From contig NZ_JARUBH010000009.1 in assembly GCF_029626105.1 (NCBI RefSeq), positions 3,162,001 to 3,226,000 on the forward strand: a stretch of DNA of 64,000 bases, written 5' to 3'. The notes beneath the pieces were generated by a model. That model saw nothing but the letters and a program-made list of their open reading frames with translations. It did not search any database and was not told the origin of the DNA. Of the stretch, positions 9,861 to 40,873 are shown one piece after another (the stretch's first letter is position 1; each line of letters starts with the position of its first letter). This stretch comes from Solwaraspora sp. WMMD792 (GTDB lineage: Bacteria > Actinomycetota > Actinomycetes > Mycobacteriales > Micromonosporaceae). Both the position numbers and the translations under genes were made by a program.

Positions 9861-11834
9861 CTAGGTGCGATCCGCGCCGTCATCCGGCGACCCGGCGAGC
9901 GCAGCGACGATCGTCTCCGCGATCCGCCGGCCGATGCCGGGCACCTCGGTGATCTCGTCGACGGTCGCCGAGGCGATCCGCCGGACCGAGCCGAAGTGCC
10001 GCAGCAGCGCCTTGCGCCGGGTCTCGCCGAGCCCGGGCACCTGGTCCAGCCCGGAGGCCGTCATCCGCTTCGACCGGCGCTGCCGGTGGTAGGTGATCGC
10101 GAACCGGTGCGCCTCGTCGCGGATGCGTTGCAGCAGGTAGAGCCCTTCGGAGGTGCGCGGCAGGATCACCGGGTAGTCGTCGCCGGGCAGCCACACCTCC
10201 TCCAGCCGCTTGGCCAGCCCGCACAGCGCCACGTCGTCGACGCCGAGCTCGGCCAGCGCCGTCGCGGCGGCCTGCACCTGCGGCGCACCGCCGTCGACCA
10301 CGACCAACTGCGGCGGGTACGCGAACCGGCGTGGCCGTCCGGTCTGCGGGTCGACACCCGGCGGTGGCTGGGCCACGTCCGCCGCCGGCGGCGCCGGCAC
10401 GTCGTCAGCAGGCACCGTCGCCTGCGACGGCGGTTCGTCGGCGGGCTGGCGGTGGCGGGCGAAGCGTCTGCGCAGCACCTCGCTCATCGCGGACAGGTCG
10501 TCGGTCGCCCCCCGGACTGCGAACCGGCGGTACTCGGCCTTGCGGGGCAGCCCGTCCTCGAACACCACCAGGCTGGCCACCACGTCGGTGCCCTGGATCT
10601 GCGACACGTCGAAACACTCGATACGCAGCGGCGCGGCGGCCAGCCCCAGCGCCTCGGCGATCTCCTCCAACGCCTGGCTGCGGGTGGTCAGGTCACTGGC
10701 CCGGCGCAGCTTGTGCCGGGTCAACGCCTCGCCGGCGTTGCGGGCCACCGTCTCCATCAGGGCGCGCTTGTCGCCGCGTTGCGGCACCCGCAGCGTCACC
10801 CGGCTGCCTCGGCGGGCGGTCAGCCAGTCGGCGAGCGCCGGCGCGTCCGCCGGCAGCTCGGGCACCAGCAGCTCCCGGGGCACGTCGGTCTCGCCCTGCT
10901 CGGGGCCGTACACCTGGGTGCAGAAGTGATGCACCAGGTCGGCGGTGGTCAGCTGCTCGACCTTCTCCACCACCCAGCCGCGCTGACCGCGCACCCGGCC
11001 GCCGCGGACGTGGAACACCTGCACCGCGGCTTCGAGCGGGTCCTCGGCGAAGGCGACCACGTCGGCGTCGGTGCCGTCCCCGAGCACCACGGTCTGCTTC
11101 TCCATCGCCTTGCGCAGCGCGGCGACGTCGTCACGCAGCCGGGCGGCCCGCTCGAACTCCAACGCCTCGGCGGCGTCGTGCATGTCCCGCTCCAACCGGC
11201 GCACCATGGTGTCGGTGCGCCCGGCCATGAAGTCGCAGAACTCGTCGACGATCGCCCGGTGCCCGGCGGCGTCGACCCGGCCGACGCACGGCGCCGAGCA
11301 CTTGCCGATGTCACCGAGCAGACACGGCCGCCCGACCTGGCCGGCCTGCCGGAACACGCCGGCCGAGCAGGTCCGCGCCGGGAAGACCCGCAGCAGCAGG
11401 TCGAGGGTCTCGCGGATCGCCCAGGCGTGCGAGTACGGCCCGAAGTAGCGCACCCCTTTGCGTTTCGCCCCGCGCATCACCTGCAGCCGGGGAAACTCCT
11501 CGTCCAGCGTCACCGCCAGGTACGGGTAGGACTTGTCGTCCCGGTAGCGGACGTTGAACCGGGGGTCGTACTCCTTGATCCAGAGGTACTCCAGCTGCAG
11601 CGCCTCGACCTCGCTGCCGACGGTCACCCAGTCGACCGACGCGGCGGTGGTGACCATCTGCTGGGTCCGCTGGTGCAGTTGCCACAGGTCGCCGAAGTAG
11701 GAGTTGAGTCGGCTGCGCAGGCTCTTGGCCTTGCCGACGTAGATGACCCGCCCGGTGGGATCACGGAACCGGTAGACCCCCGGCGAGTCCGGGATGGTGC
11801 CGGGGGCGGGGCGGTAGCTGGACGGATCTGGCAT
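9861..11834 (-). CDS. uvrC: UvrABC system protein C (dual-incision nuclease)
   Basis: 657 residues. The N-terminal GIY-YIG nuclease domain ([23 protein letters not shown], shown here as separate blocks DSPGVYRF and [13 protein letters not shown]) makes the 3' incision. A Cys cluster ([21 protein letters not shown]) follows, then a UvrB-binding segment near residue 230. The RNase H-like 5' nuclease has ECFDVS and VVDGG, and a C-terminal helix-hairpin-helix has [19 protein letters not shown] Pro/Ala-rich insert of about 50 residues splits the nuclease half, as in other actinobacteria. The ATG at 11834 lies seven bases after a -10-like TACGCT, suggesting a leaderless mRNA from a DNA-damage-type promoter. 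Confidence 0.96.
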
Positions 11835-34501: not shown

Positions 34502-35749
34502 GTGCGGATAGAGATCGTGACCGCCGGCAGCCGGGGCGACGTCGCACCGTACACCGGTCTGGGGCAGGCCCTGCGGGCCGCCGGCCACCGGGTCACCGTG
34601 ACGACCCACGGCGCCTTCGACGCGCTGGTGACCGGCGGCGGCCTCGACTTCCGGTCGCTGCCCGGTGACCCGTACGCCGCCCAACTCACCCCCGGCGGGC
34701 GGCGGCTGCACCGGCTCGGCGGTGGGCTGCGCGGCACCGCCGAGTTCGTCCGGCAGGGCCGGCGCTACCTCGACGATCTCGCAACCGGGCTGGTCGACGT
34801 CGGTGCCGACGCCGACGTGCTGCTGCTGGCCACCACGACCGCTCCGCTGGGCTACTCGGTGGCACAGCGACGCGGGATCCCGAGCATCGGGGTCTTCCTG
34901 CAACCGGTCGCACCGACCGGCGACTTCCCGCCGGTGCTGCTCGGCGACCGGTCCTTCGGGTCGGCCGGCAACCGGGCGCTGGGGCGCGGAGCCGAGGCGG
35001 CCAGCGCTCGGGCGTACGACCACTCCTCCCGGCGGCTGCGCCACCGGCTCGGCCTGCCGCCGGTCCCGCTGGCCGCCCTGCTGCGGCAGGCCAGGCGCTC
35101 AGGCTGGCCGGTGCTGCACGGGTTCAGCCCGAGCGTGCTGCCCCGACCGGCCGACTGGCGCCCCGGGCTGGAGGTCGTCGGCTACTGGTGGCCGGCCGCC
35201 GACCCACACTGGACTCCCCCACCGGAGCTGACCGGGTTCCTGCGCGACGGTCCGCCGCCGGTGCTGATCACCTTCGGCAGCATGGCGGTGCTCGACGCGG
35301 CACTGCCGACACTGCTCGGTACGGCGTTGCGCCGGGCCGGCGTCCGCGCGATCGTGCAGGCCGGCTGGGGTGGGCTGCGGGTCGGCGGCGACGACGTCCT
35401 CGCGGTCGGCGACGTACCGCACGACCGGCTGCTGCCCCGGGTCGCGGCGGTGATCCACCACGCGGGGGCCGGCACCACCGCCGCCGGGCTGCGGGCCGGG
35501 GTGCCGGCGGTGACCGTACCGCTCATCGCCGACCAGCCGTTCTGGGCCGCCCGGCTGGCGCGGCTCGGGGTCGCCGCCGAGCCGCTGCCGGCCCGGCGGC
35601 TCACCGCCGACCGGCTGGCCGACGCCGTCCGCACGGTGCTCGACCGGCCCACGTACGCCGAACGGGCCCGGCACCTCGCGACCCGGATCGCCGCCGAGGA
35701 CGGGTACGCCGCAGTGCTGCGCGCCGTCGACCGGGTCACCCGCCGCTGA
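34502..35749 (+). CDS. GT1-family glycosyltransferase
   Basis: 415 residues. GT-B fold of the UDP-glycosyltransferase/sterol glucosyltransferase type: N-terminal IEIVTAGSRGDVAPYTGLGQALRAAGH, mid ITFGSMAV, and the C-terminal donor-binding region VAAVIHHAGAGTTAAGLRAGVPAVTVPLIADQPFWA. Acceptor unknown; relatives decorate macrolides, sterols and lipids. GTG 34502 is preceded by CGGAG. The 3' end overlaps the STM4011-family gene on the other strand by 14 bases. Confidence 0.9.
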   Translation: MRIEIVTAGSRGDVAPYTGLGQALRAAGHRVTVTTHGAFDALVTGGGLDFRSLPGDPYAAQLTPGGRRLHRLGGGLRGTAEFVRQGRRYLDDLATGLVDVGADADVLLLATTTAPLGYSVAQRRGIPSIGVFLQPVAPTGDFPPVLLGDRSFGSAGNRALGRGAEAASARAYDHSSRRLRHRLGLPPVPLAALLRQARRSGWPVLHGFSPSVLPRPADWRPGLEVVGYWWPAADPHWTPPPELTGFLRDGPPPVLITFGSMAVLDAALPTLLGTALRRAGVRAIVQAGWGGLRVGGDDVLAVGDVPHDRLLPRVAAVIHHAGAGTTAAGLRAGVPAVTVPLIADQPFWAARLARLGVAAEPLPARRLTADRLADAVRTVLDRPTYAERARHLATRIAAEDGYAAVLRAVDRVTRR

Positions 35750-36662
35750 CCGGATCCGCAGCAGCGGCCGGACCGGCCACCGCTGCGACCTCAGACGCCG
35801 TATCGGGGAAGGCGTGCGGGATGCGTTCCAGGACGCCGCCGGCGAAGACGTCGTACAGCGGCAGCTCCCGCAGATGCACGTAGCCGATGTGGCAGTCGCA
35901 CGAGTCCAGTGGGCAGGGGCGCGGGCGCAGCGCGGCCCGGTAGGAGCCGTCGTAGAGGTTGCCCAGCGGTTCGGCGACGAAGTGGCACCGGCGTACCGTG
36001 CCGTCCCCGTCGACCGAGACCACCGACTCCCCGGTGCGGCACGACCGCCCGGCCGACTGGTGCGGGTGGACGCTGTAGCCGAACAGCGGGTCGAGCTCGG
36101 TCCACGCCCGCTGCTGGGCGGCGTCGTAGCGGTGCCCGTCGGCGGCGTTGACCCAGAGGTAAACCTCGGCCGGTAGCGCGGCCCGCAGCGACCGGGCGGC
36201 CGCCAGGTGCTCCGGCAGGCCGACGACCCCTACCGAGAACCGCACCCCGGCGGTACGCAGCGTGCCGCAGCGGCGCAGGAAGACCTCCCGGTCGACCTGG
36301 CCCGGGTGGTACGTGGCCCAGAACGCCAGCCGGCGACGCTGGTCGGTGTCGGCGTCGGCCAGGAAGTCCAGCCGGGCGGCCAGGTTGGTCTGGATCGCCA
36401 CCCGGCCAACCTGCGGCAGCCCGGCCAGCCGCAGCAGCGCCCGCCGGTACCAGGACCGGGTCAACGCCTCGCCCCACGGGGTGAACAGCACCGAGATCCG
36501 GTCGTCGTGCGGATTACGCACGGCCCAGTCGACGAACCGGTCGAGCGCCACCCGGTCGGTGCGCAGCGTTGCCGGGTCGTCGCGGCGCTTGGCGAACGGA
36601 CAGTACGGGCAGTCGTAGTTGCAGCTGGCCAGCGGACCCCGGTAGAGGATGCTCAGGTCCAT
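35736..36662 (-). CDS. STM4011-family radical SAM protein
   Basis: 308 residues. The N-terminal [4Fe-4S] site is CX3CX2C (Cys14, Cys18, Cys21) in SCNYDCPYCPFAKRRDD. TPWGEAL follows, and a C-terminal auxiliary Cys set (Cys in SCRTGES, RCHF, CPLDSCDCH) could bind a second cluster, as in SPASM/twitch enzymes. I recognise it as the STM4011 family by sequence and by its four neighbours. Reaction unknown. It starts five bases after the STM4012 gene and is the last gene of the five-gene unit. Confidence 0.88.
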   Translation of the reverse strand: MDLSILYRGPLASCNYDCPYCPFAKRRDDPATLRTDRVALDRFVDWAVRNPHDDRISVLFTPWGEALTRSWYRRALLRLAGLPQVGRVAIQTNLAARLDFLADADTDQRRRLAFWATYHPGQVDREVFLRRCGTLRTAGVRFSVGVVGLPEHLAAARSLRAALPAEVYLWVNAADGHRYDAAQQRAWTELDPLFGYSVHPHQSAGRSCRTGESVVSVDGDGTVRRCHFVAEPLGNLYDGSYRAALRPRPCPLDSCDCHIGYVHLRELPLYDVFAGGVLERIPHAFPDTASEVAAVAGPAAAADPVSGG

Positions 36663-36667
36663 CCGGC

Positions 36668-37993
36668 TCACCGGGCCGGCAGGTCGGCCATCGCCGCCCG
36701 GACCCCGGTCGAGACCAGCCACGGGCCGATCGCGTCGCTGCGGGCCAGGCCGGCGCCGGTCAGCGCCAGCCGGTCCGGGGTGACCGTCAGCCACCCCTGG
36801 TCGACCAGCGTCGCCAGCTGCGGGAAGTCGTCGACGGCCCGGGTGGCGAACCGCGCCGCGTACGCCGCCTGGTCGCATCCGTCGGCCCGCAGCAGCGAGG
36901 TGATCAGCCAGCGTCGGCGCTGTTCGTCGCGGTCCAGCCGGAAACCCACCTCGGCGACGTCGAAGTCGGACTCCGGCCGGCGCAGGTAGTCGTCGATGAT
37001 CGCCCGCACCTGACCGACGGAGACCGCGTAGTCGAACGAGTAGTGCAGGTCGCTGGTGTAGGACCGGGCGCCGCAGCCGAGTCCGATCATCCCGTCCTCC
37101 TGGCAGGAGTACGCCGGGGCGTCGACGACCGGCAGCGACGCGCGGCGGAAGTGCCGCATCGACAGTTGCCGGTAGCCGGCGGCGCGCAGCCGGTCGACAC
37201 CGTGCCGGTACAGCGTCTGCCGTTGGGCGTCCCACTGTGGATCAGGCAGGTCGGCCGGGGCACGGCGGGCCAGGCCGGTCAGTGGGCGGACGTAGAGCGG
37301 GTAGAGGTAGATCTCCTCCGGCTCCCAGCGCAGCGCCGCGTCGAGCGACTGCGCCCAGGTGGCGTCGGTCTGGCCGGGGATGCCGTAGATCAGGTCGATG
37401 TTCAGCTCCGGGATCGGCTGGTCCCGAATAGCGGCCAGGGCGCGCTCGACCTCGACGCGACGCTGTGGCCGGCCGGCGGCCCGCGCCTCGGCGTCGAGGA
37501 AGCTCTGCACCCCGATGCTGATCCGGGTGGTGCCGCGGGCGGCGAGCACCGCCAGCCGGTCCGGGGTGGCGGTGGCCGGCGACGTCTCCACCGCAGTCGG
37601 CACGCCCGCCGGCCGGAACCTGTCGACCAGGTCGAACATCGTCGACAGCTCGTCGGCGTCCAGGTAGGTCGGCGTACCGCCGCCGACGGCGACCCGGGCG
37701 AACCGGGCGTCGTCGCCGAGCGCGGCGGCCACCCGTACCGCCTGGCGGCGCAGCTGGTCGAGGTAGGCGGCCACCTGCCCGGCCGGCGGGTTGGCTCGGG
37801 TGAACAGGTTGCAGAAGCCGCAGCGCATCTCGCAGAACGGCAGGTGCAGGTAGAGGAACAGCTCCGTGCGGCGCTGCCCGGACCAGACGTCGGCCAGCGC
37901 GGGACGCGGCCGCAGCGGCCGGTACGCCGTCTTGTGCGGATACCCGTACAGGTAACCCTGGTACGGCGAGCCGTCCAGGTCCGCGACGGTCAC
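36668..37993 (-). CDS. STM4012-family radical SAM protein (HemN-like)
   Basis: 441 residues. HemN-type radical SAM core with CX3CX2C at Cys54/Cys58/Cys61 (LPFCEMRCGFCNLF), VGGGTPTYL, RISIGVQSF and NIDLIYGIPGQT, plus a C-terminal HemN-like domain ending in a winged-helix segment. Although HemN-like, the YGYPHKTAYRPL N-terminus and gene context identify the STM4012 family rather than coproporphyrinogen oxidase. The GTG at 37993 overlaps the STM4013 stop as GTGA. Confidence 0.9.
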   Translation of the reverse strand: MTVADLDGSPYQGYLYGYPHKTAYRPLRPRPALADVWSGQRRTELFLYLHLPFCEMRCGFCNLFTRANPPAGQVAAYLDQLRRQAVRVAAALGDDARFARVAVGGGTPTYLDADELSTMFDLVDRFRPAGVPTAVETSPATATPDRLAVLAARGTTRISIGVQSFLDAEARAAGRPQRRVEVERALAAIRDQPIPELNIDLIYGIPGQTDATWAQSLDAALRWEPEEIYLYPLYVRPLTGLARRAPADLPDPQWDAQRQTLYRHGVDRLRAAGYRQLSMRHFRRASLPVVDAPAYSCQEDGMIGLGCGARSYTSDLHYSFDYAVSVGQVRAIIDDYLRRPESDFDVAEVGFRLDRDEQRRRWLITSLLRADGCDQAAYAARFATRAVDDFPQLATLVDQGWLTVTPDRLALTGAGLARSDAIGPWLVSTGVRAAMADLPAR

Positions 37994-38820
37994 GCCGGGT
38001 CCGGCGGCGCGGCGTCGGACCAGTCGCCGGGGGCGATCACGAAATCGGCGTACGGCACCGTCCACACCACCTCGTGCCCGACCCGGTGCCCGCTGTGCCC
38101 GTCCTCGCCGTACGCGGTGCCGTGGTCGGCGCAGATGATCGTCAGGCAGGGCCGGCCCCGGGAGCTGGCCATGGCGAACAACCGGCCGATGTGCCGGTCG
38201 ACGTACTCCAGTGCGGCGGCGTGGCTGTCCCGGTTGTCGCGTTCGGTGCCCGGCAGGTAGTGCCGGTTCGGCTGGTGCATCGCGGCCACGTTGACGAACA
38301 GGAACAGCGGCTGGTCGGCGGGTACGGCCGGGACGACCTCGGCGATCCGGTCCAGCTGGGCCTCGAAGCAGCCCGGCGCGGTCACCCCGAACGCCGGCTC
38401 CCAGTGCGCCTCGGCGAACAGTCCCGGCAGGGTCGCGCCCAGCGGCGAGGACCGGTTGAAGAACCCGACCCCGCCGACGCACACCGTGTGGTAGCCCTCC
38501 TTGCGCAGCGCGGTGACCAGGTCGGGTGCGTCGAAGACCCAGGTGTGCTCGTCGGTGGTGGCGCTGCCCGGGAAGGCGGCGGCGAACATCCGGGGGTGGC
38601 TGCCCGGTTCGGCCGGGGTGGGCAGGAAACCGGTGAAGAACGCCTGATGCGCGGCGTAGGTGAAGCTGGCCGGGCTGTGCCGGCGCTGCCACTGCCCGTC
38701 CGGTAGCGCGCGGGCCAGCTGCGGTGTCCGACCGGCGGCGAGCAGCTCGGCCGCCACGTCGTAACGCAACGTGTCGAGCGTGACGAACAGCAGGTCGTGG
38801 CTGCCGATCAGGTCCTTCAT
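37990..38820 (-). CDS. STM4013-family hydrolase (alkaline phosphatase/sulfatase fold)
   Basis: 276 residues. Alkaline-phosphatase-like fold: DLLFVTLDTLRYD at the N-terminus (metal Asp, and Thr as candidate nucleophile), SPASFTYAAHQAFFTGFLP, and the metal-binding ADHGTAYGEDGHSGHRVGH at the C-terminal end. No signal peptide, so it is cytoplasmic, unlike ordinary sulfatases. The start ATG overlaps the STM4014 stop as ATGA, with GGGAGG about five bases upstream. It presumably removes a phosphate- or sulfate-like group within the pathway; the substrate is unknown. Confidence 0.88.
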   Translation of the reverse strand: MKDLIGSHDLLFVTLDTLRYDVAAELLAAGRTPQLARALPDGQWQRRHSPASFTYAAHQAFFTGFLPTPAEPGSHPRMFAAAFPGSATTDEHTWVFDAPDLVTALRKEGYHTVCVGGVGFFNRSSPLGATLPGLFAEAHWEPAFGVTAPGCFEAQLDRIAEVVPAVPADQPLFLFVNVAAMHQPNRHYLPGTERDNRDSHAAALEYVDRHIGRLFAMASSRGRPCLTIICADHGTAYGEDGHSGHRVGHEVVWTVPYADFVIAPGDWSDAAPPDPA

Positions 38821-39932
38821 GCCGACCTCCCCATCGCGGCCGTGGTCCGCCAGGCGGCGAACCGGCCGGTACGTATGGCATGCAGTTGGGCAGCGTAGCT
38901 GTCCCGCCCGGCGGCGTCGCACACGCCGGGAAGCAGATCGCCGAAGGCGTTCACCTCCGCCACGGCGTGCCGCCGCCAGTCACTGCCGATCATCAGGTCC
39001 ACTCCGACGTGCAGGCTGCCGGTGAAGCAGCGGGCCGTGCGTACACAGTCGGCCAGCGCCGCCGCCCACCGGCGGGGACCGAACGCCGCCCGCACCGCCG
39101 CCGGGTCACCGCGCCGGTTGCCCAGGTGCAGGTTGGTCAACGGACCGTCGCTGCTGCGTACCACGAGGTGGCCCGGTACGCCGGCGATCACCAGCACCCG
39201 CAGGTCGACGACCCGGCCGTGTAGACCGGCCTTCGGGAACCAGCGCTGCACCAGCAACCCGTCCGGGGCCAACCGGTCCACGATAGAGGCGACCTCCCGC
39301 TCGGTGCGGTAGGTCCGCACCCGCAGCGAGTTGAACAGCCGCCCGTCGTCGGCCAGCTCGACCGAGGTGACCGCCTGCACCCGCCGGCCGTGTGTGTGCA
39401 GGGCGAGCACCCCGGACGCCGACGACCCGTGCACCGGCTTGACGAAGACCCGGGCCCAGCCGACGTCGGACAGAGCGGTACGCAGCTGCGCCCAGTCGCC
39501 GGGTGCGGTGTCCAGGATGGCCGGTTGCGCCACCCCGGCGGCGGCCAGCCGCCGGTGCCCGGCCCGTTTGTCGAACAGTACGGCGATGTCGGCCGGGTCG
39601 TTGAGCAGGGTCGCGCCGGCCCGCCGGGCGGCGTCGGTGAGCCGGCCCAGGGCGGCGCGCAGCCCGACGTACCAGGCGGCGCCGCCGCTGATCTCGCCGT
39701 GGTCGAGTGGCCGGCCGGCGCCGCGCAGCAGCCGGTCCACCTCGGAGTCCTCGCCGGGCGAGTCGATCCGTACCGTCGCCCCGCCGGGCAGGGCGATGTC
39801 CTCCCCGGCGGCGAGCTTCCGCCAGGGCAGCACCCGAACCCGCAGGCCAGCGGCGTGCGCGGCGGTGCGGAACGCCCCGACCCGCCGGTTGCCCGGGTTG
39901 CCGACCACGACCAGCGGCGTGGTGTGGCTCAT
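38817..39932 (-). CDS. STM4014-family protein (ATP-grasp fold)
   Basis: 371 residues. N-terminal VVVGNPGNRRV domain, then ATP-grasp features: LFDKRAGHRRLAAAGV, VFVKPVHGSSASGVLAL (nucleotide Lys and Gly-rich loop) and a metal-binding AEVNAFGDLLPGV near the C-terminus, similar to RimK-type ligases. It likely forms an amide or acyl-phosphate-dependent bond on a substrate made by the neighbouring enzymes (inference). Coupled to STM4013 downstream. Starts 20 bases after the STM4015 gene; no obvious Shine-Dalgarno. Confidence 0.85.
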   Translation of the reverse strand: MSHTTPLVVVGNPGNRRVGAFRTAAHAAGLRVRVLPWRKLAAGEDIALPGGATVRIDSPGEDSEVDRLLRGAGRPLDHGEISGGAAWYVGLRAALGRLTDAARRAGATLLNDPADIAVLFDKRAGHRRLAAAGVAQPAILDTAPGDWAQLRTALSDVGWARVFVKPVHGSSASGVLALHTHGRRVQAVTSVELADDGRLFNSLRVRTYRTEREVASIVDRLAPDGLLVQRWFPKAGLHGRVVDLRVLVIAGVPGHLVVRSSDGPLTNLHLGNRRGDPAAVRAAFGPRRWAAALADCVRTARCFTGSLHVGVDLMIGSDWRRHAVAEVNAFGDLLPGVCDAAGRDSYAAQLHAIRTGRFAAWRTTAAMGRSA

Positions 39933-39952
39933 CGGGTGAGGTTAACAACCGG

Positions 39953-40873
39953 TCATTCGCCGACCGAGACGTACCGCCCCCGGTGCGGGTCGACCTCCTG
40001 CTGATCACTCAGGTCGACGTCGACGCCGGGCAGTGCGGCCGGCAACCGGACCATCATCGCGTCGGACAGGTAGTGCCGGTGCAGGTCGAGACGGCGCAGA
40101 TGGGTCAACGGCTGCCCGGCGAGCAGGGCGGTGGCCCCATCGTCACCGAGGGTGCCCAACGACAGGTCGATGGTTTCCAGGCGGGGCACCACCGGCGCGG
40201 CGGTCAGCGCGGCGGCGACCGCGTCGGCGATCTCGGCGTTACGCAACCCGAGGGTACGCAGCGCGGGCAGCCGGGTGCCGTCGAGGATCGGCGCCAGGTC
40301 GTCCACTGAGGTGTCACCTTCGTAGTCGGGGGTGCCCAGCCACAGTTCCAGATGGGTGCAGGCCGGCAGATCGCTGGCGGCCACGGCGCGGGTGAGGGCG
40401 GCCGGCAGCCCGCCGGACTCGATGGCGAACTCCCGCAGCCCGGTGTGCCGCACCGGCTGCAACAGCAGCGACATCGCACCGCGTACCCGCAGCACCTGCA
40501 GCGCCGGGTAGGCGGCCAGCAGCGGGGTGACGTCGGGCTGCAGGATCCAGGAGATCTCGCACTCGTCGAAGGTCATCTCGCCGAGGAAGACGGCCCGCAG
40601 GTTGGTCAGCCGGGGCGCGGCGTCGACCAGCAGCTCCAGCGGGAACGCCACGTCCCACGGTTCGCCCCAGTCACCGGTCACCAGCGCGTCGACGCTCGCC
40701 GGGTCGACGGTGTCCAGCCAGGTGGCGAAGAGTTGGGCGAATTCGACCTCGTCCTCCTCCGACGCGCTGAGTCGCCAGGCGACCGGGGTGCCGGTGTGCT
40801 CCGCCGCGGTCTGCGGATCGAAGTCGACCACCGGCAGTCCGGCGAAATGGGTGATGTGCTCGTTGATGGTCAT
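39953..40873 (-). CDS. STM4015-family leucine-rich-repeat protein
   Basis: 306 residues. N-terminal segment THFAGLPVVDFDP, a WRLSASEEDE stretch, then leucine-rich repeats from about residue 85 onward (LTNLRAVFLGEM, LPALRTLGLRNAEI, LETIDLSLGTLGDDG, LTHLRRLDLHRHYLSD). LRRs bind proteins or peptides, so it may present or be the substrate of the radical SAM enzymes (inference). First gene of the five-gene unit. CGGAG lies nine or ten bases before the ATG. Confidence 0.85.
   Translation of the reverse strand: MTINEHITHFAGLPVVDFDPQTAAEHTGTPVAWRLSASEEDEVEFAQLFATWLDTVDPASVDALVTGDWGEPWDVAFPLELLVDAAPRLTNLRAVFLGEMTFDECEISWILQPDVTPLLAAYPALQVLRVRGAMSLLLQPVRHTGLREFAIESGGLPAALTRAVAASDLPACTHLELWLGTPDYEGDTSVDDLAPILDGTRLPALRTLGLRNAEIADAVAAALTAAPVVPRLETIDLSLGTLGDDGATALLAGQPLTHLRRLDLHRHYLSDAMMVRLPAALPGVDVDLSDQQEVDPHRGRYVSVGE

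Follow-up and report, generated by a model that had tools for sequence, protein, structure and literature searches.

The window analysed here, a 64,000-nucleotide stretch of the Solwaraspora sp. WMMD792 genome (contig NZ_JARUBH010000009.1), carries a minus-strand cluster of five tightly packed open reading frames (ORFs), all open, at 35736-40873. They encode a leucine-rich repeat (LRR) protein of the STM4015 family (306 amino acids, 39953-40873), an ATP-grasp ligase of the STM4014 family (371 amino acids, 38817-39932), a hydrolase of the STM4013 family with an alkaline-phosphatase superfamily fold (276 amino acids, 37990-38820), a HemN-like radical S-adenosylmethionine (SAM) protein of the STM4012 family (36668-37993) and a second radical SAM protein, of the STM4011 family (308 amino acids, 35736-36662, ATG start at 36662). 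These five families had been named in an earlier note on this DNA, and a search with the NCBIfam models placed all five proteins well above the curated cut-offs (STM4015, NF038076, 350 bits against 275; STM4014, NF038074, 400 against 175; STM4013, NF038075, 411 against 250; STM4012, NF006067, 603 against 380; STM4011, NF038073, 390 against 200). The coordinates, gene order and tight packing given there were borne out by an ORF check: the start of STM4013 overlaps the end of STM4014 by ATGA, the GTG start of STM4012 at 37993 sits in a GTGA overlap with STM4013, and a 5-base gap separates STM4011 from STM4012.

We examined 87 loci, comprising seven plasmid loci and 80 genome loci, the latter being the best 80 of 526 from a scan with an STM4011 alignment, all from actinomycetes and, because they were fetched with STM4011, conditioned on that gene. 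In 80 of the 87, the five genes share a strand and follow the order STM4015(n)-4014-4013-4012-4011, as they do in the window. Four of the seven deviating loci (L039, L066, L073 and L087) are cut by contig ends; L090 lacks STM4014, which was found elsewhere in the same genome, L034 is a lone STM4013 paralogue, and in L037 STM4012 and the greater part of STM4013 are missing. An unconditioned sample of 197 Actinomycetes genomes was surveyed for STM4015, STM4011 and STM4014. The three families are present in an identical set of 19 genomes, at 38, 19 and 19 places respectively, with one to five STM4015 copies per genome against one STM4014 and one STM4011. The co-occurrence on which the earlier note had staked its claim is confirmed by these counts, and the five genes belong together beyond chance. 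STM4013 was above its cut-off in 6 of the 296 genomes of a phylum-wide sample.

More than one STM4015 gene is present in 26 of the 80 complete loci (two in 24, four in one, and an inverted extra copy in one), and one sampled genome (G341) has five in tandem. Extra LRR paralogues, which the earlier note proposed to look for beside the genes, are thus found in many genomes, with up to five copies, but the genome of Solwaraspora sp. WMMD792 has a single one. The distribution outside Actinomycetota comes from plasmid and E. coli records rather than from a survey. The five-gene set is also found, in the same gene order, on plasmids of Salmonella, Paenibacillus, Deinococcus and Methylobacterium, in a reduced form on a Bacteroides plasmid, and on the chromosomes of 154 of 5426 complete E. 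coli genomes (with a query covering STM4014 to STM4011). Two of the E. coli records were opened, and STM4015 is marked as frameshifted in one of them. In the E. coli loci L130 and L131, the cluster and a HAD gene are bordered by typA-glnA at one end and by yih or ompL genes at the other.

The window STM4015 protein ends in the tail RYVSVGE (codons 300-306, 39956-39976, minus strand), and the terminal Glu306 is invariant in the copies examined. It is present in all 109 STM4015 proteins extracted from the loci (an incomplete, inverted copy at the border of L060 is not among them), in 110 of 110 alignment rows once the window protein is included, with no row dropped, and in 33 of 33 proteins read from 16 sampled genomes; these 33 are part of the 38 STM4015 places in the 197-genome survey, and their species may repeat among the 109. 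Across the 110 rows, position 300 is Arg in 108, position 301 Tyr or Phe in 108 and position 304 Val in 101, and the approximately 12 residues ahead of the tail form a variable, acidic linker. The mean pairwise identity is 0.551 in the body, 0.215 in the linker and 0.718 in the tail (5995 pairs), and copies within one locus give a similar profile (0.56, 0.18 and 0.78, respectively; 30 pairs). The proteins end in YTE in Salmonella, LTE in Paenibacillus, ITE in Bacteroides and FTE in E. coli, so that apart from Glu the tail residues differ between phyla; in the 33 proteins from sampled genomes, Arg300 is often replaced (for example in the ending YYPSVTE), the final Glu never. The family names of the set were already known, and the invariant terminal Glu of STM4015 behind a variable acidic linker is new here.

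A gene overlap or a ribosome site was considered as the cause of the terminal Glu and rejected, because the residue holds in every class of gap to the next gene (36 overlaps, 17 gaps of 0-6 bases, 14 of 7-12, three of 13-20, seven of 21-40 and 32 of more than 40; the classes are approximate, the start codons being script-chosen) and in four STM4015 copies remote from the cluster, either on another contig or at a distance of about 100 kb. It is encoded by GAG in 90 and GAA in 19 proteins. The final residue is not fixed in the STM4014, STM4013 and STM4011 proteins of these operons, and in STM4012 it is Lys or Arg for 82 of 84. A pattern describing the tail matched 108 of 13030 ORFs of at least 20 amino acids in 84 loci and the window, all 108 being STM4015; the pattern is not exhaustive, as it missed one of the 101 known STM4015 in these loci and a short ORF at L137. 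That ORF (10028-10231, minus strand) belongs to the Thermocatellispora genome (G467) whose main cluster, L090, lacks STM4014. The ligase gene lies elsewhere in this genome (E 8e-129), and its start overlaps the end of the short ORF, which has 67-116 amino acids depending on the start codon, keeps the last 46 STM4015 residues and ends in FVVVGE directly before STM4014. Most of the repeats are lost; the tail and the ligase neighbour are retained.

The structural model of STM4015 has a predicted local distance difference test (pLDDT) score of 93.0, and its best structural match is PDB 2ra8 (query TM-score 0.82), the B. fragilis protein Q64V53. This is an STM4015 relative ending in YPMITE before its tag; it has the same kind of ending as the window protein and an extra N-terminal domain, which we take to be WGR. 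No paper on 2RA8 or Q64V53 was found in PMC. Conserved positions in loops of the LRR domain are W69, E106, W109, G154-G155 and Y184.

STM4014 matches an ATP-grasp family in Pfam, and its AlphaFold2 model (built with 30 sequences) has a pLDDT of 91.4. Among the 50 best Foldseek matches of this model in the PDB, 29 are PsnB, ArgX, LysX, RimK, PruB or MdnC, with PsnB ranking first and ArgX with LysW second; the modelled fold is closest to that of ligases acting on peptide or protein carboxylates. A profile of the family sequences has LysX as its top match in the PDB, at a weak E value (0.018) and chiefly over a D-[LI]-R ... T-N ... G-G stretch. The residues K165, D312, E326 and N328, which presumably have the usual ATP-grasp roles, are conserved in at least 98% of 80 rows (three were dropped for length); E326 is not kept in all five distant sequences. 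The earlier suggestion that the LRR protein is a substrate or carrier now has indirect support, from its invariant C-terminal Glu and from the modelling of STM4014 as a RimK/LysX/graspetide-type ligase.

STM4013 matches the Pfam Sulfatase family (54.6 bits). Type I sulfatases have the motif C/S-x-P-x-R, in which the Cys or Ser gives formylglycine, and relatives with Thr at that position perform phosphoester chemistry. Thr54 occupies this nucleophile position in at least 98% of 81 rows and in 8 of 8 sequences of a second alignment, and His58 stands in place of the motif Arg. With Thr54 instead of Cys or Ser, STM4013 is not a type I sulfatase by motif, and the residue points to phosphoester rather than sulfate chemistry. 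The sulfatase fold proposed from the sequence stands as a fold; the protein is indeed without an obvious leader, as had been remarked. Paralogues of STM4013 are also found outside the five-gene set (L133 5816-9235 and L034 7726-9889). In Kitasatospora, the paralogue adjoins genes for a MoaA-like radical SAM protein, a thymidylate-kinase-like protein, a 165-amino-acid protein of unknown kind and a NUDIX-like protein, and in S. albidoflavus it adjoins a short relative of this 165-amino-acid protein as well as NUDIX and lasso-B2-like genes; these neighbourhoods are possibly a separate phospho-chemistry cluster. A distant sulfatase-like relative (29.5% identity) is encoded on Agrobacterium Ti plasmids (L036 8001-8837), where the other four genes are not annotated nearby.

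The two radical SAM enzymes are of the types first assigned to them, HemN-like for STM4012 and with auxiliary Cys for STM4011. STM4012 is related to HemN (PDB 1olt) and to the methyltransferase NocN (9p2u), and scores under the cut-offs for HemN (128 bits against 325), HemW (135 against 205) and HutW (151 against 400). For a possible defence role, a PADLOC scan of seven proteins gave a match for STM4012 alone (PDC-M51A, E 5.5e-8). In STM4011, three plus five Cys are invariant across seven sequences. The SPASM motif reads C-x9-15-G-x4-C followed by C-x2-C-x5-C-x3-C, and STM4011 has the first part as C208-x12-G221-x4-C226, its second part reading C250-x4-C255-x-C257.

Taken by analogy with characterised ligases, the operon may be a protein-tail modification system in which the folded LRR protein STM4015 offers its C-terminal Glu as the attachment site. 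At the expense of ATP, STM4014 would activate one carboxylate of this Glu and join an amine to it (an amino acid or similar), in the manner of LysX and ArgX with LysW and ArgW, or of RimK with ribosomal protein S6. Either the attached group or the tail itself would next be worked on by both radical SAM enzymes and by STM4013, a putative Thr-nucleophile phosphohydrolase or phosphotransferase, and in some hosts also by a Cof-type HAD phosphatase. The product could be a permanent modification, or could be freed by an enzyme encoded outside the operon. In favour of this reading are the invariant Glu behind its variable linker at any gap to the next gene, the single STM4014 beside one to five STM4015 copies, the joint occurrence in 19 genomes, the fold class of the ligase model and the short Thermocatellispora ORF. 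Sequence, synteny, co-occurrence and modelled fold are observed; we infer every chemical step in this scheme, namely the acceptor Glu, the amine, the chemistry and the release, and we give about an even chance (roughly 0.5) to its central statement, that the terminal Glu of STM4015 receives an amine through STM4014 and that the radical SAM enzymes and STM4013 act there too. A more specific form is tentative: STM4015 would be an LRR carrier on which STM4014 loads a small molecule at the Glu, the radical SAM enzymes and the Thr-nucleophile phospho-enzyme would reshape it, and it would be released or kept as a protein-bound cofactor, with paralogous carriers sharing one enzyme set. As part of this form, and equally tentatively, the carrier scheme would extend over actinomycetes, enterobacteria, Paenibacillus, Deinococcus, Methylobacterium and Bacteroides.

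Several observations count against tail modification at the Glu. A disordered tail had been expected to favour a carrier and an ordered one to weaken it, and the outcome is mostly ordered: the STM4015 model is confident at residues 291-300 (pLDDT 92), the last six residues having 77. Because of this order, the modelled tail may be docked or structural rather than a free LysW-like arm. A fixed end is also not unique to STM4015, since two proteins encoded in the flanks of other loci have fixed or near-fixed ends, a GHxH-motif protein (Asp in 68 of 68) and a DUF6745 protein (Thr in nearly all of 67); a fixed end preceded by a variable linker is a stronger point than a fixed end alone. The 50 best Foldseek matches of STM4014 also include 15 D-Ala-D-Ala ligases and six inositol kinases, the likeness is moderate (query TM-score about 0.42-0.59, identity 10-20%), and the protein, with 17.3 bits, scores far under the cut-off of 143.4 for the RimK family (TIGR00768). 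The string GSWGR is absent from STM4014, the window protein having KPVHGSSASGV, and STM4015 is a 306-residue LRR protein ending in SVGE, without the EDWGE ending of LysW and unlike that small carrier with Zn-binding Cys. The operon contains no release enzyme, and the short Thermocatellispora ORF is a single case that may be a decaying gene.

The ordered tail fits an explanation that we regard as doubtful, in which a partner protein or the protein's own LRR domain binds the terminal carboxylate and the side chain of the Glu, STM4015 serves as scaffold or regulator, and the ligase and radical SAM enzymes act on a separate small molecule. The near-fixed last residues of other neighbourhood proteins are consistent with such docking, and the loops with W69, E106, W109, G154-G155 and Y184 could form a binding face. 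It explains less well that substitutions occur at adjacent tail positions (Arg300 to Tyr and others) and never at the last residue, and that STM4014 resembles enzymes working on protein or peptide carboxylates.

The graspetide ligase PsnB as top Foldseek match of STM4014 would suit a route like that of ribosomally synthesised and post-translationally modified peptides, with the LRR protein as an oversized leader and its last 7-10 residues as the core. The radical SAM enzymes would cross-link or alter the core, STM4014 would make a graspetide-type ring or cap the end, and a host protease would free the product. The Cys spacing of STM4011, in part SPASM/twitch-like, would agree with this, as SPASM/twitch-type enzymes often act on peptides, and so do tandem STM4015 copies beside one enzyme set. 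A graspetide core, however, combines conserved acidic donors with Ser, Thr or Lys acceptors, and no conserved acceptor was found in the alignment and the 109 STM4015 proteins: the last seven residues have no Ser, Thr or Lys in 53 of 109, and the last twenty no Lys in 99 of 109. With tail residues other than Glu varying between phyla, and no protease or exporter gene belonging to the set in the loci and flanks inspected, we consider this route unlikely. Far less credible still is an ordinary cytoplasmic sulfatase (STM4013) beside a coproporphyrinogen oxidase or heme enzyme (STM4012), with the LRR protein incidental. The Pfam Sulfatase match and the HemN-like nature of STM4012 speak for it, but Thr54 at the sulfatase Cys/Ser position, the low HemN and HutW scores of STM4012 and the finding that the 19 genomes with STM4015 are also those with STM4011 and STM4014 do not.

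In Salmonella, E. coli and two sampled actinomycetes (one confirmed with Pfam), the gene after STM4011 encodes a Cof-type HAD protein, and in Bacteroides a HAD domain and STM4011 are found in one ORF (Cof E 2e-19, under that cut-off). Including this fusion, the HAD genes next to STM4011 lie at L037 8325-9890, L031 10907-11641, L130 10667-11365, L149 7695-8400 and L144 near 3273; further copies lie beside the GHxH gene (L043 12410-13180 and L058 11445-12221). The recurrent HAD gene hints at a phosphorylated intermediate.

A pair of genes encoding the DUF6745 protein and the approximately 100-amino-acid protein with GHxH/HEEH motifs is present near 65 of 80 actinomycete loci (65 of loci L039-L118) and three plasmid loci (L032 3165-4629, L035 11034-12343 and L038 4498-5823). 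The GHxH protein matches phrog_27831, and its relatives occur in 10 phage records, of which eight are from Microcystis phages. DUF6745 exceeds 300 bits in 8 of the 197 genomes, all among the 19 with STM4015. The pair looks accessory, because the genome of Solwaraspora sp. WMMD792 gives a weak DUF6745 match (32 bits) and none to the GHxH protein, the latter being an empty answer from a search without a positive control. DUF6745 was also considered as a second carrier, as its ending Y-x-P-x-x-[E/Q]-T resembled the STM4015 tail, and dropped since the acidic residue is Gln in many. The other recurring actinomycete flankers that were inspected are ordinary (GDSL lipase, Tyr phosphatase, M23 peptidase, class III aminotransferase and TetR).

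In the window, a TetR regulator and an ABC transporter lie upstream of the cluster and a glycosyltransferase downstream on the opposite strand; these flank genes, together with ABM and TerC, were not seen as constant neighbours among the loci examined. A promoter and terminator scan found none, and no tRNA was found within the 64-kb window.

No product or reaction for the STM4011-STM4015 set was found in the literature searched (PMC, with most subscription papers outside its coverage), in agreement with the earlier note, and PMC gave nothing for SEN3800, DUF6745, PF20530 or the family names. Of 5.39 million PMC papers, two contain any of the five locus names; in excerpts of these two papers, STM4013.S is a row in a list of sigma54-enriched ORFs (PMC3844500) and STM4015 a table row in a positive-selection scan (PMC2784778). 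The set in Salmonella, E. coli and many actinomycetes carries family names, and the terminal Glu together with the RimK/LysX-like ligase model gives a testable idea of what it may do.

Compared with other STM4011-STM4015 loci, the window lacks the enterobacterial HAD gene and the DUF6745/GHxH pair that accompanies most actinomycete clusters. Among characterised systems, RimK with RpsF (S6) resembles it in a similar modelled ligase fold and in action on a protein C-terminus, and differs in that STM4014 scores far under the RimK-family cut-off; to our knowledge there are no radical SAM enzymes in that system. In the excerpt available, RimK adds glutamates at the RpsF C-terminus (PMC10092738). 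The pearlins (3-thiaglutamate and 3-thiahomoleucine) are also built on the C-terminus of an encoded carrier and involve a radical SAM enzyme; unlike here, the PEARLs are a different enzyme type using aminoacyl-tRNA, the carriers are short, and a protease and a transporter are present (PMC9303977, in excerpt). LysW/ArgW with LysX/ArgX has a carrier with an essential terminal Glu beside an ATP-grasp ligase of similar modelled fold, and STM4015 shares the invariant C-terminal Glu by which an excerpt of PMC10433800 defines the LysW carrier. There, LysX joins an amino group and the side-chain carboxyl of the Glu that ends LysW, and replacement of that Glu in ArgW leads to arginine auxotrophy. STM4014 matches LysX and ArgX weakly by sequence, the partner enzymes differ, and STM4015 is not filed as a LysW-type carrier because the EDWGE ending, Zn-binding Cys and GSWGR string are missing. 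Both carrier types are routes to amino-acid products, as an excerpt of PMC9303977 states. If amine coupling to the STM4015 Glu is true, a folded LRR protein would join a small group of known carriers that hold metabolites by an amide bond during their construction.

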